DNA from: Planctomycetaceae bacterium | GTDB lineage: Bacteria > Planctomycetota > Planctomycetia > Pirellulales > Pirellulaceae | DNA length: 61,259 nucleotides | Direction of reading: 5' to 3' | Assembly: GCA_018660825.1 (NCBI GenBank) | Contig: JABJJO010000108.1 | Span: 1-61,259, forward strand | Part shown: positions 1-61,259 of the stretch, one piece after another | Layout of the letters: each line of letters begins with the position of its first letter | How positions within the stretch are numbered: the stretch's first letter is position 1 | Program-made: the position numbers and the translations under genes | The notes under the pieces: generated by a model | The model's input: only the letters and a program-made list of their open reading frames with translations | Databases searched by the model: none | What the model was told of the DNA's origin: nothing

Positions 1-417
1 AAAGCCAAAGTGATTGGGCCCCCATTTGGGGAGTGACCCGAGGTGCCATTTTCCGGTGAGACAGGTTTCATAGCCGCGGGATTTGAGGGCGGCCGCTAGG
101 GTGACCGTGTCAGTTGGAAGTGCGCGGGTGTTCGTGGGCGAAGTGATTCCGAAGCGACTCCAACAGCGACCGGTGAGCAGTGCCGTGCGAGTGGGTGAGC
201 AGACCGGGGCGACGTAGTGTTGCGTGAGTTCGAGGGACTTGGCAGCCAGTTGCTTGAGGTTTGGCGTAGGTGCGTTTCCCTGGTGGTCATTAAAGGCAAC
301 GTCGGCCCAGCCGAGGTCATCAGCCATGATGAAGACGATGTTCGGTGGCGCGGCTTGTGCGGTCGCCGCGGTTGCGAGACACAACACAAAACAGAATCGT
401 AATATTTTATTAAGCAT
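1..417 (-). CDS. Sulfatase, N-terminal part (cut by window edge)
   Basis: Exported arylsulfatase-type hydrolase that cleaves sulfate esters. Only the first 139 codons are present; the gene runs off the left edge. Reading from ATG at 417 gives a signal peptide (residues 1-22, ending A-Q-A-A), the metal-binding stretch M-A-D-D-L-G-W at about 31-37, and the formylglycine motif C-S-P-T-R with the modifiable Cys at residue 73, followed by the usual L-L-T-G-R. The later G-K-W-H-L motif is also present. This order is diagnostic of family S1 sulfatases. The natural substrate cannot be told from this fragment. The nearest neighbour on the same strand, the HEPN gene, ends 103 bases upstream of the start, so it probably has its own promoter. 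Confidence 0.93.
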   Translation of the reverse strand, partial: MLNKILRFCFVLCLATAATAQAAPPNIVFIMADDLGWADVAFNDHQGNAPTPNLKQLAAKSLELTQHYVAPVCSPTRTALLTGRCWSRFGITSPTNTRALPTDTVTLAAALKSRGYETCLTGKWHLGSLPKWGPNHFGF

Positions 418-55822: not shown

Positions 55823-57256
55823 TTAACTAACCAATTCACGAATCACCCGGGCGTCATAAACGTCGGTCAATTTTTCATCGCGACCATTTTTCTCGTGCAC
55901 TAGATCTTCATGATCAAGGCCCAGCAAATGTAAAATCGTTGCGTGATAGTCAGACATCTTTGTGCGATTGACGACCGACCGATAACCGAAATCATCGGTT
56001 TCTCCATAGGTTTGACCACCTTGAACACCGCCTCCAGCCATCCACACACTAAATCCATAAGGATGGTGGTCACGTCCCTCGGATCCCATCGATACTTTAC
56101 CACCTCGCAGTTCCGCACCGGGCGTGCGTCCAAATTCACCACCCCAAAGTACCAAGGTTGAATCCAGCAAGCCTCGTTGCTCCAGATCTTGCAATAGTGC
56201 GCCAATCGGTCCGTCGGTACGCTGGCAACAGGAACTCGTGTTTTTCACATTGTCAGAGTGTGTATCCCACGGCTGGCCACTCATCAGAATTTGCACAAAC
56301 CGCACGCCGCGTTCCACCAACCGCCGCGCCATAAGGCAGCGTTTTCCGTAAGACAGAGTCACCTTGTCCTCCAACCCATATGCCTTTTGAGTAACTGCTG
56401 TTTCCTGCGAGATATCCATCGCATCAGTGGCGGTTAATTGCATGCGCGCGGCTAATTCTAAATTAGAAATGCGCGCATCCAATTCCAGTTCGTGCGGATG
56501 ATTCACCTTGTGGCGTGCATTAATGGATCGCAATAAATCCAGCTTAGACTGACGCACTTGTTCTATTTGCATGTGCTTTGGATTCAAGTTTAAAACCGGC
56601 GTTCCCTCACTACGAAATGGTGTGCCTTGATAAACCGGCGGCAACCAACCGTTGGACCAATTTCGCACTCCGTCCACCGACTGACCGGCCGGATCCGGCA
56701 ATACTATATATGCCGGCAGGTTTTGGTTAACGGTGCCCAATCCATAAGCCGACCACGCACCGAGCGTTGGACGCCCGGGTGTAATCAATCCGGTTTGAGC
56801 CATCCAAATTGCCTGTTCGTGATTCCTATGTTCTGTGAACATAGACCGGATCACGGCGATTTTGTCGGCGTGCTTAGCGATGTTGGGCAGGCGGTCGGAA
56901 AACTCGACACCATTCTCGCCATATTTGCGAAACTTAAACGGCGTTCCGAATAGGTATTTCGTGCGATTCTCATCGTCGACTACACTGTCCGGTGGCGTTT
57001 TACCATGGTATTGATTCAACATTGGTTTTGGATCTAACAAATCAACCTGGCTAGGTCCGCCATGCATGAACAACTGTATCACTGATATCGCGCGAGGTTT
57101 AACGCCCGGTGAACGTTGGCTTAAATCGTGAATCCCTTTCGACGCAACGGCATCCTCGTGCAGCAGCGTAGACAAGGCCAAACCGCCGAATCCAGCACCC
57201 AGTTTCTGTAATACCTCCCGACGGGATCGTCTGGTTTGATTTGCTGTTTGATTCAT
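55823..57256 (-). CDS. DUF1501 protein, operon partner of the cytochrome
   Basis: A 477-residue DUF1501 protein. R-R-S-R-R-E-V-L-Q-K-L near 9 starts a twin-Arg signal. M-H-G-G-P-S-Q-V-D-L-L-D-P-K-P, L-V-L-W-G-G-E-F-G-R-T-P and G-R-D-H-H-P-Y-G-F-S-V-W-M-A-G-G-G are present. It starts 39 bases after the cytochrome gene and is its operon partner, with the redoxin-like gene upstream of both. Confidence 0.95.
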   Translation of the reverse strand: MNQTANQTRRSRREVLQKLGAGFGGLALSTLLHEDAVASKGIHDLSQRSPGVKPRAISVIQLFMHGGPSQVDLLDPKPMLNQYHGKTPPDSVVDDENRTKYLFGTPFKFRKYGENGVEFSDRLPNIAKHADKIAVIRSMFTEHRNHEQAIWMAQTGLITPGRPTLGAWSAYGLGTVNQNLPAYIVLPDPAGQSVDGVRNWSNGWLPPVYQGTPFRSEGTPVLNLNPKHMQIEQVRQSKLDLLRSINARHKVNHPHELELDARISNLELAARMQLTATDAMDISQETAVTQKAYGLEDKVTLSYGKRCLMARRLVERGVRFVQILMSGQPWDTHSDNVKNTSSCCQRTDGPIGALLQDLEQRGLLDSTLVLWGGEFGRTPGAELRGGKVSMGSEGRDHHPYGFSVWMAGGGVQGGQTYGETDDFGYRSVVNRTKMSDYHATILHLLGLDHEDLVHEKNGRDEKLTDVYDARVIRELVS

Positions 57257-57295: not shown

Positions 57296-59983
57296 TCAAT
57301 CAATGTACGCAAATTCATTGCTCGACAACAAAACATGGCAAAGATCCACCAGCGCCAAACGGGTTGCTTGCTTCAGATTCTGTTCAGTTGATTTTTTCTG
57401 CTCATCCTGCTCACCGCTCAAATAGATGTCTGCCTGCCGCCGAATAAATTCTTCCAATCCTTGACGCTGTTCAGCATCAGCGCGACGTCCAGTCACGGCC
57501 ATGAATGTATATCCAATCGGATCTTGAGGCGACTCTAGCAGAACACGATCCGCGAACGCCGCCGCGGCATTAACGACCAAGTCACTGTTAAGTAACGACA
57601 AGGCTTGCAGCGGGACAGTTGACTGATTACGCCGAGTGCAATTTGTTTCGATGTCTGGTTGATCAAATAGTTGCAGTATTGAAACCGGTGCAGAGCGTTT
57701 ATTCCGCAAATAGATTGATCGTTTTTGTGGTAACTTGCCATCGTTCACCACAACCTCGCCATCAGGACGGCGGACAATGGCCGTCGGCGCACCATACATA
57801 TCACTGCGCAAGGCCCCCGCAAGATGCAAAATGCTATCACGCAGCGGTTCGGCTTCCATCCGCCTTAAATTTTGACGCCACAACAAACGGTTGTTGGGGT
57901 CAACCGTTTCAGCGTGACTCGCGGTGACCGCAGAGGATTGTTGGTATGCTTGCGTTGACAAAATCAAACGATGCAAATGCTTCAAGCTCCACTGATTCGA
58001 TTCCAGCTCTACCGCCAACCAATCCAACAACTGTTGGTGTTGCGGTTCTTCTCCAGCCCAGCCAAAATCCTCAACCGTGGATACTAAGCCCTCACCAAAA
58101 TGGTGTAACCACAGTCGGTTTGCCATTACTCGAGAAGTTAACGGATGGCGGTTTTGAGTCAACCAATTGGCAAATGCTGTACGGCGCAACGACGTCGACA
58201 CTTCACCTTCAACGGCTTCCCACACAAACGGTTCATCTGCTTGGATCATCTCTGGCACGCCTGGCCGTACCACTGCGCCTGGGGTTTGCGCGTCACCGCG
58301 GCGCAAAAAGGGGGTATACGGTACACCTGAAACATCGTATGCGGCATAGACATAGTCAAAGTGCTGACGACGTTGCTCCACTACTATTTGCTGTGTCGCA
58401 TTATCGGCGACCGCTTGTTTATACACCGGATAATCCGAGAGTAACGCAGCTTCAAGTGCTTTCGCTTCGGGACGTAACAACGAACCGAATTTCTCAACTA
58501 AGTACTTTTGAACAATTGTTTGTTTGTCCACTGCAATCTTTACAGCCGCAGATACATCGGCCTGAAGAACTTCGGGCAATGCACCCAAACGTTTCATAAA
58601 CAATTCTTCAATCTTCATTTCACGCAGAGTCGCTAATTCTTTTTTTAACGCTATCAACTCTACGTCTATCTGCTTATTGTGAATCGCCGCTGCATCCACT
58701 TGGCTCTTTGAGGCAACAGGTCGTTTGCGATCACGAAAGGGAATCCAAGCGTCTGGATTATAGACGCTCATAAAGATCGCCTGCAGTTGATAGTAATTTT
58801 TTTGTGTCAACGGGTCGAACTTGTGATCGTGGCACTTGGCACACTTCACGGTAATCCCCATCAAACCGCTGGTCACAATTTGCAATTGTTTATCAATTGT
58901 GGGGTAGTAATAAAGTCCGTTCACATTTTTGATCGTTTTGAAGTCTGGGCGACTTGCATCGGGAGCAGTACGCAGAAACCCTGTCGCCGATAATGCTTCC
59001 ACAACATTCCTTGGCAGTTCAGTGCTATTTTTAAAATGCTCCCAGTAATTATGAACCTCGTCGCCCGCAATCTGCTCACGCACAAACTGATCATAAGGAA
59101 GATCACGATTAAGGGCGCGAATTACGTAGTCACGAAATCGCCAAATCAATTGCCGGTCTTGATCGGCAGATAACACCCCAGCGGAATCAGAATAGCCTGC
59201 TACATCAAGCCAATGCCGCCCCCAACGCTCACCGTAGCGAGGATCAGCAAGTACTTCATCAAGTAACCGCTGAAAACCAAGCGGGGAATCATCCGCGACA
59301 AACCGTTGTATCGCCTGCGGAGATGGCAGTATGCCCAGCATGTCTAGATAGACTCGGCGTATAAGAGTGGACTTTGCTGCCGGGGGAGAAAACGAAAGGC
59401 CTTCCGCAGACAATTGTTCCAGCAAAAACAAATCAATCGGGTTGGTAATAGAATCTGAAGATTCTTTGCCGCTGACAACGGGCACAGGTGGTCTTTGCGG
59501 AGGCGTAAAGGACCAATATGTATATTCAACTTGATTGTAAGAAGTCGTTTCTACGGCATTTATGTCAACGTTATTCGAATTGGCCACGGCTAACTTCAAA
59601 TCGTTCCTAGCATTTTCGTTTATCCAAACTCGGATCTTACCTTGCTCTACATCGGTCAACGGTTCCCCTTTGGGAGGCATCTTTCCTGATGAGACGACTT
59701 CGTAAAGCAAGCTCGTTTCCGCAGCATCTAAGCGAATGGCCGGTCCAGATTTTCCACCCTGCAAAATTCCAGTAACCGTCCGCAAATCTAAGCCAACTTT
59801 TGGCGCCGCGCCACCATGACACCCGATACAGCGAGACTTTAGGATCGGCAATATATCCTTATCGAAAACAGACGCCATTTCCATTGACTGGGGTGTTTGC
59901 GCTTCTTTTTCCTCTTTCCCTAACGCGGGTAAGGTAAACAACAAACAAAGACTAAACTGCAGGAAGTTTCGCATCATAGACAT
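57296..59983 (-). CDS. Planctomycete surface cytochrome (PSCyt1 / DUF1549 / DUF1553)
   Basis: A 895-residue exported protein. Signal peptide about 1-22. PSCyt1 has C-I-G-C-H at 52-56 and K-M-P-P-K-G. DUF1549 follows (R-W-G-R-H-W-L-D-V-A-G-Y-S-D). A second heme motif C-A-K-C-H-D-H-K-F-D-P lies in the middle, then a coiled-coil-like stretch and DUF1553 (R-V-M-A-N-R-L-W-L-H-H-F-G-E-G, N-C-T-R-R-N-Q-S-T-V-P-L-Q-A-L). It begins 4 bases after the stop of the TGA-containing redoxin-like gene, implying translational coupling and possibly electron or thiol exchange between the two. Confidence 0.95.
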   Translation of the reverse strand: MSMMRNFLQFSLCLLFTLPALGKEEKEAQTPQSMEMASVFDKDILPILKSRCIGCHGGAAPKVGLDLRTVTGILQGGKSGPAIRLDAAETSLLYEVVSSGKMPPKGEPLTDVEQGKIRVWINENARNDLKLAVANSNNVDINAVETTSYNQVEYTYWSFTPPQRPPVPVVSGKESSDSITNPIDLFLLEQLSAEGLSFSPPAAKSTLIRRVYLDMLGILPSPQAIQRFVADDSPLGFQRLLDEVLADPRYGERWGRHWLDVAGYSDSAGVLSADQDRQLIWRFRDYVIRALNRDLPYDQFVREQIAGDEVHNYWEHFKNSTELPRNVVEALSATGFLRTAPDASRPDFKTIKNVNGLYYYPTIDKQLQIVTSGLMGITVKCAKCHDHKFDPLTQKNYYQLQAIFMSVYNPDAWIPFRDRKRPVASKSQVDAAAIHNKQIDVELIALKKELATLREMKIEELFMKRLGALPEVLQADVSAAVKIAVDKQTIVQKYLVEKFGSLLRPEAKALEAALLSDYPVYKQAVADNATQQIVVEQRRQHFDYVYAAYDVSGVPYTPFLRRGDAQTPGAVVRPGVPEMIQADEPFVWEAVEGEVSTSLRRTAFANWLTQNRHPLTSRVMANRLWLHHFGEGLVSTVEDFGWAGEEPQHQQLLDWLAVELESNQWSLKHLHRLILSTQAYQQSSAVTASHAETVDPNNRLLWRQNLRRMEAEPLRDSILHLAGALRSDMYGAPTAIVRRPDGEVVVNDGKLPQKRSIYLRNKRSAPVSILQLFDQPDIETNCTRRNQSTVPLQALSLLNSDLVVNAAAAFADRVLLESPQDPIGYTFMAVTGRRADAEQRQGLEEFIRRQADIYLSGEQDEQKKSTEQNLKQATRLALVDLCHVLLSSNEFAYID

Positions 59984-59987
59984 AATC

Positions 59988-60551
59988 TTATTTCAAAATC
60001 GTTCCGAGACTAACGATCACTTTCTTAATTGCCGCTGCGTTTAATTCCCCCACGGCAAAAGCATGATTCGCCTTAACTTGCAAACCGGTCCACAACATCA
60101 CCGTAACTTCAGCGTCCGCCGCAATTTTATAATCTGGCGGGCCTTTAGCATCCTTAAACACCGTTAATGGAAGAGTACGCAGTCGGTTCATTTGCGCAAT
60201 TTCGCTCAATTTACCTTCTTGTTTTTGCGGTTTGTCACTCAACACAACTACAAATGCTCGCAATTGTTTATTCGAGTTTTCAAATAATTTTGCTTGAAGT
60301 TCTTTGGCCAAACTGACCACGTTATCGTCGAGCGAGCGAGTAAAAACTGCTACAACCGGACGACCGCCGTAAACTCAGCGATAGCAAAGGGTCTTACCAC
60401 GAGTTTGCGCCGAGGAACAATCCTTCACGTCAAACGCATCGGCGTAATCGCCAATTTGTAAACCTGATTTTATCTCAGCGTGCAATAGCGTGGTAAACGC
60501 AAGCCAACCGAAGCAAGCCAGCATAACCATAGTTTGTCGTTTCATGTTCAT
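59988..60551 (-). CDS. Exported redoxin-like protein with in-frame TGA at the CxxC position; candidate selenoprotein
   Basis: From ATG 60551 (GGAAG 9 bases upstream) the frame encodes a signal peptide (1-25), then G-D-Y-A-D-A-F-D-V-K-D, and at 54-58 T-L-C-Y-R, TGA at 60375-60377 (codon 59), and continues V-Y-G-G-R-P-V-V-A-V-F-T-R-S to a stop at 59988: 187 residues if TGA is read. Planctomycete relatives, from memory, have L-C-Y-R-C followed by Y-G-x-R-P-V-V; TGA thus sits at the second Cys of C-x-x-C, giving C-Y-R-U. If translation began only at the downstream GTG 60320 the signal peptide and redox motif would be lost. The gene is coupled to the cytochrome/DUF1501 operon and is divergent from a TlpA-like gene. 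Alternatives are TGC-to-TGA nonsense or error. Confidence 0.68.
60350..60372 (-). promoter_or_regulatory. Hairpin directly after the in-frame TGA (weaker SECIS candidate)
   Basis: On the minus strand TTACGGC and GTTGTAG pair over 7 bp (three G-U) around a 9-nt loop that begins GGTC, the tetranucleotide also found in the E. coli fdhF SECIS loop. The stem starts 2 nt after the TGA, so the loop starts only 9 nt downstream, shorter than the 16-37 nt of the bacterial model. Support for a SECIS is therefore weak. Confidence 0.3.
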
Positions 60552-60661
60552 CGAAATTCACTTCCGTTCTTATTGTATAGTTATTAAACGTATGGCCTAC
60601 ATTCATTATAATCAATTCATACTTCTACTATCAGGTTATTATCACCAGCGGCCAAATTCTC

Positions 60662-61240
60662 ATGAAAAACCCAACCAATCGAACCTATTTTGTCGGCATC
60701 CTACTCGTAACTATTTCCTGTGGTTGCGGCGCAGATAATGTTATTGTGCCAACTCCAATCGGCGATGCCCCAACAACCAAACAAGTTGTTGAGACGCCTC
60801 TAACCACAATGGGAACTTGGGCGGATATCGAGACTCTTATCAAAGAAAACCGCGGAAAGGTTGTCGTCGTGGACATTTGGAGTACTTATTGTGCGCCGTG
60901 CATGAAAGAATTTCCTCGATTGCTTGCGTTGCAAAAACAACATGGCGATAAATTGCAATGTGCATCATTTAACATCAATTACGCTGGACTACCGAATCAA
61001 ACTGTTGAAACGGACCTGCCATACATCCATAAGTTCTTAGCAAAGCAACAATTTCAGGTGACCAACATTGTTTCAACCGAAACCGACGAGCAGGTTTATG
61101 GACAACTTGAAATATACGCGATCCCGGCAATCCTAGTGTTCGACAAAATGGGCAAGCGAGCGGCGACTGTTATGGAAGAAGCAGCCTATGAAAAGACGGT
61201 AAATCCGTTGGTCGCGTCGTTAATTGGCGAGCAGAAGTAG
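60662..61240 (+). CDS. TlpA-like thioredoxin-fold lipoprotein
   Basis: A 192-residue exported thiol-disulfide protein. The N terminus has a lipobox-like V-T-I-S-C (Cys20). The thioredoxin domain has V-V-V-D-I-W-S-T-Y-C-A-P-C (Cys77, Cys80) and P-A-I-L-V-F-D-K-M-G-K with cis-Pro near 156. This is the TlpA/ResA group that keeps periplasmic thiols reduced, for example for heme attachment, which suits the c-type cytochromes nearby. It is divergent from the TGA-containing redoxin-like gene across 110 bases. Confidence 0.88.
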   Translation: MKNPTNRTYFVGILLVTISCGCGADNVIVPTPIGDAPTTKQVVETPLTTMGTWADIETLIKENRGKVVVVDIWSTYCAPCMKEFPRLLALQKQHGDKLQCASFNINYAGLPNQTVETDLPYIHKFLAKQQFQVTNIVSTETDEQVYGQLEIYAIPAILVFDKMGKRAATVMEEAAYEKTVNPLVASLIGEQK

Positions 61241-61259
61241 GAGGAACGCTCCGCGATTT

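Follow-up and report, generated by a model that had tools for sequence, protein, structure and literature searches.

A probable exported CxxU selenoprotein with a peroxiredoxin/ResA-type fold in Planctomycetota

The Gene and Its Reading Frame

Close to the end of the window, meaning the whole stretch of 61,259 nucleotides that was analysed, lies a gene interrupted by one in-frame TGA. It occupies the minus strand from 60551 to 59988 and yields 187 residues when the TGA is translated as selenocysteine (Sec). The observation of an earlier note on this DNA, that a single frame is open except for the TGA at 60375-60377, holds on that strand; on the plus strand, frame 1 contains five TAA/TAG stops and one TGA. 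The features of the locus are as follows.

55823..57256, minus strand: DUF1501 protein (Pfam PF07394), downstream of the PSCyt gene
57296..59983, minus strand: PSCyt1-PSCyt2-PSD1 protein (planctomycete cytochrome C; Pfam), starting 4 nt past the stop of the selenoprotein gene
59988..60551, minus strand: candidate selenoprotein coding sequence, 187 residues including Sec59, TAA stop at 59990-59988; from translation, homologues across Planctomycetota and dN/dS
59988..60320, minus strand: 110-residue GTG-start frame expected from a standard gene caller (table 11 translation)
60324..60364, minus strand: SECIS-like hairpin found by a scan, about -11 kcal/mol; its apical loop measures 11 nt and begins at base 27 past the UGA
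60375..60377, minus strand: TGA, codon 59, almost certainly read as Sec59, the second residue of CxxU; TGA or Cys codons only in 80/80 loci
60384..60386, minus strand: codon of Cys56, the first motif residue, an invariant column among 67 aligned members
60477..60551, minus strand: probable Sec-type signal peptide, residues 1-25, ending LHA; by inspection, with low pLDDT over residues 1-20
60662..61240, plus strand: divergent TlpA/ResA-like thioredoxin with a CAPC motif and, by inspection, a lipobox-like ISCGC; Pfam Thioredoxin_8/Thioredoxin

The minus-strand translation places the TGA in the context TLCYRUVYGGRPVV, and the protein reads MNMKRQTMVMLACFGWLAFTTLLHAEIKSG...GKTLCYRUVYGGRPVVAVFTR..., with Sec59 arising from the TGA at 60377-60375. 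By inspection, GGAAG lies a few bases 5' of the start codon. The first 25 residues are likely an export signal, in keeping with the note's description of the protein as exported. Its expectation for gene calling was equally borne out: translation with table 11 gives only the frame of 110 residues from GTG at 60320, so standard gene calling would miss both the export signal and the active site. Compared with a 91%-identical relative (L134), dN/dS is 0.23 before the TGA and 0.07 over the 128 codons after it, and the latter value means that selection continues downstream of the TGA.

The TGA/Cysteine Column Across the Family

Two surveys, which overlap in organisms and whose counts are not additive, describe the codon aligned with the TGA. 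The first covered 117 genomes (the source genome and relatives) with the protein as query, TGA being read as Cys. Matches occurred in 80/117 genomes, and 105 listed matches were used after omission of 14, namely the fragment G096:C289 and 13 with E >= 9.9e-7. Of these 105 homologues, 34 carry TGA and 66 TGC/TGT at the codon; the remaining five comprise one Ser, two Lys (a motif-less paralogue, QK), one Val (DV) and one truncated sequence. The TGA form is present in 31 of the 117 genomes, the source genome included.

The second survey queried a GTDB-based collection with an alignment restricted to the sequence downstream of the TGA, which avoids bias at the site. A single peptide pattern was used, and 80 of 83 confirmed loci were kept. 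Here the codon is TGA in 33/80 and TGC/TGT in 47/80, with nothing else, and the 13,429 codons of the matched domains hold no further in-frame TGA. The note had placed Cys at this position in planctomycete relatives and had read the TGA as Sec replacing Cys in a CxxU motif; both points agree with the two surveys.

All second-survey record titles name Planctomycetota or merely 'bacterium', and plasmids searched by tblastn gave no match. Within these surveys the family is thus seen in Planctomycetota only, which a one-pattern search does not turn into proof of restriction. A phylum-wide sample gave matches in 35/294 genomes; beyond the window's own, all 13 of its TGA-bearing matches, which belong to other classes, have the TGA at CxxU, as CYVU, CYIU or CPVU.

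Within the family, exchange between Sec and Cys has taken place repeatedly. On an 81-row tree built without the site, with changes counted in either direction, there are at least seven changes between the two states, four of them forced by well-supported branches.

These distributions bear on two readings in which the TGA would not encode Sec. One takes the gene for a pseudogene, a Cys redoxin with a recent nonsense mutation and a true stop, and it is true that standard translation ends at the TGA and leaves a shortened downstream frame. However, the TGA recurs at the same codon in 33/80 loci and 31/117 genomes, it exchanges with Cys only, repeatedly on the tree, and dN/dS stays low behind it; the reading is rejected on conservation past the TGA in independent genomes and has a negligible probability. 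The other supposes a sequencing or assembly error at this codon, for which the draft state of the source genome (221 contigs) might speak. Seven further genus members, L134 among them, carry the TGA in separate assemblies, which makes such an error very unlikely, to the point of being disregarded.

Selenocysteine Machinery

All four components of the Sec pathway exceed their cut-offs in the source genome, which answers the note's call to look for selA, selB, selC and selD. SelB scores 335 bits (371 with a second piece) and adjoins SelA (535 bits). The tRNA-Sec(UCA), with the anticodon loop CUUCAAA, reaches 63.9 bits in Rfam (gathering score 47) and lies about 8 kb from SelB/SelA on the same contig, so that selC, selB and selA fall within 12 kb. 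ARAGORN did not report this tRNA at L048 (G000:C22), contig positions 29322-29417, despite its Rfam score. SelD scores 349 bits. The SelD gene (L126, G000:C110:40163-41083) is itself a selenoprotein gene with an in-frame TGA in ASCAGUAGK. This second in-frame TGA of the genome stands at the UxxK place, as it does for SelD in the main text of PMC13188914; SelD, an enzyme of the Sec pathway, is unrelated to the CxxU protein.

SelB (E <= 1e-60) was found in 27/31 TGA-form genomes versus 17/49 genomes with other forms only (Fisher p 3e-6, relatedness being ignored), where five of the 49 (G017, G039, G058, G063 and G077) rest on listed matches alone, with no stop listed there. SelB also occurs in 19 further genomes in which the family has no match at all.

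The four TGA-form genomes in which SelB was not found are G003, G006, G008 and G031. G031 has SelA, tRNA-Sec and a SelD with TGA. The draft genomes G006 and G008 lack SelB and SelA over the cut-off; both retain a SelD with TGA, but tRNA-Sec reaches the gathering score in G006 only. G003, a genome 69% complete, has no SelA, SelB, SelD or tRNA-Sec over cut-off. With selC, selB and selA as close together as in the source genome, a single assembly gap could remove all three, and the missing genes in G006 and G008 may reflect either such a gap or real loss. Elsewhere, G101 has SelB without a SelA over the cut-off, and in G007 only a fragment of SelB, scoring below it, is present.

That UGA might be read as another amino acid, by reassignment to Trp or Gly or by suppression, found no point in its favour and is vanishingly improbable: the column alternates with Cys rather than Trp or Gly, Sec machinery is present, and 15 of the window's 37 open stretches spanning at least 250 codons end at TGA, which marks it as a normal stop there, not generally reassigned.

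SECIS-Like Hairpins

Across the family, stronger hairpins follow the TGA than follow Cys codons. The comparison used 60-nt windows after the codon in 34 TGA and 66 Cys members, five of the 105 homologues (two QK, the Ser, the DV and the truncated one) being omitted. Against shuffles, the mean folding z is -1.72 after TGA (n=34) versus +0.13 after Cys codons (n=66; p 1e-10). A synonymous-recoding control that keeps the protein gives -1.19 versus -0.40 (p 9e-5); windows taken as controls from other parts of the TGA genes range from -0.07 to -0.28. In a scan for the geometry of bacterial SECIS elements, the best hairpin averages -14.7 kcal/mol after TGA versus -11.4 after Cys.

The window's own hairpin (-11.0 kcal/mol, loop at +27) folds no better than its shuffles, with z values of -0.57 and -0.5, and +0.33 in the synonymous control. 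Its loop start is identical in all eight rows of the genus and the 11-nt loop is kept in seven of them. Six genus members share a consensus hairpin of 16 pairs, which contains no compensatory changes. RNAalifold returned no common structure and no pairs for the 34 TGA windows, nor any pairs for a control of 34 of the 66 Cys windows; such a lack of consensus is expected if the stems shift in position and is not positive evidence. An Rfam search of 59000-61259 at E <= 10 gave two chance snoRNA matches only and no SECIS family.

Decoding of the TGA at codon 59 as Sec is almost certain.

Fold and Position of the Motif

The family is a widespread planctomycete one without an entry in Pfam or NCBIfam. 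None of 34 members matches the Pfam profiles AhpC-TSA, Redoxin or Thioredoxin at E <= 0.01; the four matches that this search did return are to unrelated models and at chance level (best E 0.0054). NCBIfam release 20.0, with 18,950 models including many named selenoprotein families, has none over cut-off for the 34 members, two matches at chance level to unrelated models (best E 0.0037) and none for L160. Sequence searches of the PDB likewise stayed at chance level, with a best profile match of E 0.14.

Structure prediction is more informative. An AlphaFold2 model from 67 alignment rows has a pLDDT of 89.7 and a pTM of 0.83. Foldseek finds 391 matches to it at E <= 0.001, and among the 50 rows shown, VIA-align places peroxiredoxins and ResA/TlpA proteins at Z 15-17 (up to 16.8) with 8-17% identity. 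The predicted fold is confidently that of a peroxiredoxin/ResA-type thioredoxin. Of the row sets used in the analysis, A4 contains 26 of the 34 TGA members and A6 66 of the 80 loci plus the window.

The place of the motif within this fold is unusual. In the model the motif (residues 56-59) is followed by a strand (66-71) and then a helix (76-91). The canonical redox place, after the core strand at the N-terminal end of the helix, is taken by residues 72-79, RSLDDNVV, which include neither Cys nor Sec. The alignment to the ResA entry 1st9 (Z 15.9) pairs model 33..187 with chain 37..173 and takes in 136 of the 137 residues of that chain; by these ranges model residue 59 reaches only about ResA chain residue 64. 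The ResA cysteines, numbered 74 and 77 in the title of the structure entry, come after the strand. In the model, then, the CxxU is displaced, ahead of the core strand rather than after it, and the order of elements suggests that it sits at the strand's opposite end. The note's designation of the protein as a redoxin stands for the fold, which is peroxiredoxin/ResA-like; it does not stand for the standard active site.

The nearest known systems differ from the family in distinct ways. AhpD is all-helical. SelW-like and AhpD-like CxxU selenoproteins, as given in the main text of PMC13188914, also have Sec at the second place of a CxxC-type motif, but no sequence relation to them was found with NCBIfam or Pfam, where matches were at chance level only. 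Peroxiredoxins (Bcp/PrxQ, Tpx, AhpE) have the fold in common, at Z 15-17 over about 140-150 residues, but at 8-17% identity, with Pfam profiles (AhpC-TSA, Redoxin) that match none of 34 members at E <= 0.01; the family has CxxU before the core strand and no redox-active residue at the peroxidatic place. Selenoprotein peroxiredoxins with TxxU, and Prx-like ones with UxxC and UxxU, appear in the same main text. ResA/TlpA thiol-disulfide oxidoreductases share both fold and export, and the family's own neighbours are TlpA-like, some of them UxxC; ResA nevertheless has Cys74/Cys77 after the strand and the family its motif before it.

Neighbouring Genes

Neighbours were counted over the 80 loci, with flanks of differing length. 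The note had coupled the protein to a c-type cytochrome/DUF1501 operon. This coupling did not survive comparison: the PSCyt gene stands directly 3' of the family gene again only in the nearest relative L134 among the 80 loci, with L193 and L195 breaking off within some 110 bp, and a conserved PSCyt/DUF1501 operon is rejected. The six other genus members have another gene 3', forming one cluster (a short-chain dehydrogenase in L138, the only member run). What is conserved instead, in 7/7 nearest loci (L134-L140), is the divergent TlpA-like thioredoxin gene at 60662-61240, separated from the selenoprotein gene by 110 nt. Its product is, from this neighbourhood, a likely redox partner. Three other matches to it in the source genome are weak, and a profile comparison between the CxxU family and this thioredoxin found no relation.

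A TlpA-like gene lies near the family gene in 16/80 loci, 15 recognised by clustering and L154 by motif. Five of these TlpA-like lipoprotein neighbours (L142:7338-7973, L154:7697-8353, L156:7338-7865, L160:7342-7869 and L212:7368-7898) have a TGA at the first motif Cys, as WUxxC, so that a UxxC TlpA-like selenoprotein would stand beside the CxxU gene. For the neighbours in L142, L154 and L156, the nearest NCBIfam models (TlpA, ResA and WAxxUGC_long) are far below cut-off. In L168, L176 and L177 the main gene and its TlpA-like neighbour both have Cys. The window's genus and L203 combine a Sec main gene with a Cys neighbour, so the two Sec states are not always paired.

Between the family gene and the TlpA-like gene of L154, L156, L160, L212, L168, L176 and L177 sits a protein of 618-668 residues; the frame that lies between the two in L142 runs on the opposite strand. 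The cluster of this protein occurs in 13/80 loci, with two CxxCH in 12 of the 13. The three members run (L164:5393-7273, L212:5494-7365 and L158:5279-7363) have beta-propeller and cytochrome domains, with CCP_MauG over cut-off in L164 and L158 and slightly under it in L212. The L212 protein further shows a resemblance to hydrazine synthase beta/gamma models, at scores well below cut-off. Separately, in 7/80 loci the gene immediately upstream, in the same orientation, belongs to a cluster of AhpC/TSA peroxiredoxins (L155:4099-4698; Pfam was run on L155 only).

Proposed Function

Taken as a whole, the gene very probably encodes an exported CxxU selenoprotein of peroxiredoxin/ResA-type fold. SelB and tRNA-Sec(UCA) would read the UGA of codon 59 as Sec, producing the motif C-Y-R-U. 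The protein would act in the extracytoplasmic space, with Sec59 as the attacking nucleophile and Cys56 resolving it as a selenenylsulfide. The neighbouring thioredoxin (60662-61240) could then return the CxxU protein to its reduced form, and its other partner would be a haem protein or peroxide. The leading options for the substrate are peroxide or the thiols of proteins, haem proteins included. Judged by the neighbours, a relay coupled to TlpA has about an even chance. A more detailed proposal falls somewhat short of even: an undescribed family with a displaced redox centre would form half of a CxxU + UxxC TlpA relay in the cell envelope, exchanging electrons with the beta-propeller dihaem cytochrome.

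The main competitor keeps the selenoprotein and changes its role. The protein might be a stand-alone peroxidase, its Sec59 attacked by peroxide, that counters oxidative stress in the envelope, and not a partner of TlpA or cytochrome. Many of the top matches among solved structures are peroxiredoxins (Bcp4, Tpx, AhpE), and the AhpC/TSA cluster upstream in seven loci points the same way. But no Cys or Sec occupies the canonical peroxidatic position, Z values do not separate peroxiredoxins from ResA, and TlpA-like (16/80) and dihaem-cytochrome (13/80) neighbours are commoner. A peroxidase acting alone is a serious candidate, though less likely than not.

Relation to Described Selenoproteins

A 2026 review (PMC13188914) covers 119 selenoprotein families and subfamilies. 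The passages of it that were consulted describe no planctomycete CxxU redoxin, and none was found in searches of an open-access library. Passages of PMC4807772 report selenoproteins in two planctomycetes, one of them a Rhodopirellula, and name FdhA and FmdB. The family could already have been described under another name, for instance in supplementary lists of planctomycete selenoproteins; S9 Table of PMC4807772 lists those of Rhodopirellula and could include it. This is unlikely, as only chance-level matches came from the 18,950 NCBIfam models, and the main text of PMC13188914 contains neither 'planctomycet' nor 'Pirellul'.

With the CxxU protein, the list of bacterial selenoproteins would gain a family that is common in Planctomycetota. 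Its displaced motif within a classical fold, together with the TlpA and dihaem-cytochrome genes that recur in its neighbourhood, suggests an undescribed redox route in the planctomycete envelope. Because Sec and Cys have been exchanged repeatedly inside one phylum, natural pairs can be used to test the benefit of Sec over Cys. The source genome itself also holds a Cys paralogue, L052 (G000:C172:31662-32204), LCYRCKNGGRPQV, which is 42% identical, so the Sec and Cys forms coexist there. In L214 (G160:C214:118833-119995), two copies of the family stand in tandem, with a TGA at the motif in both (CYVU and CYIU).
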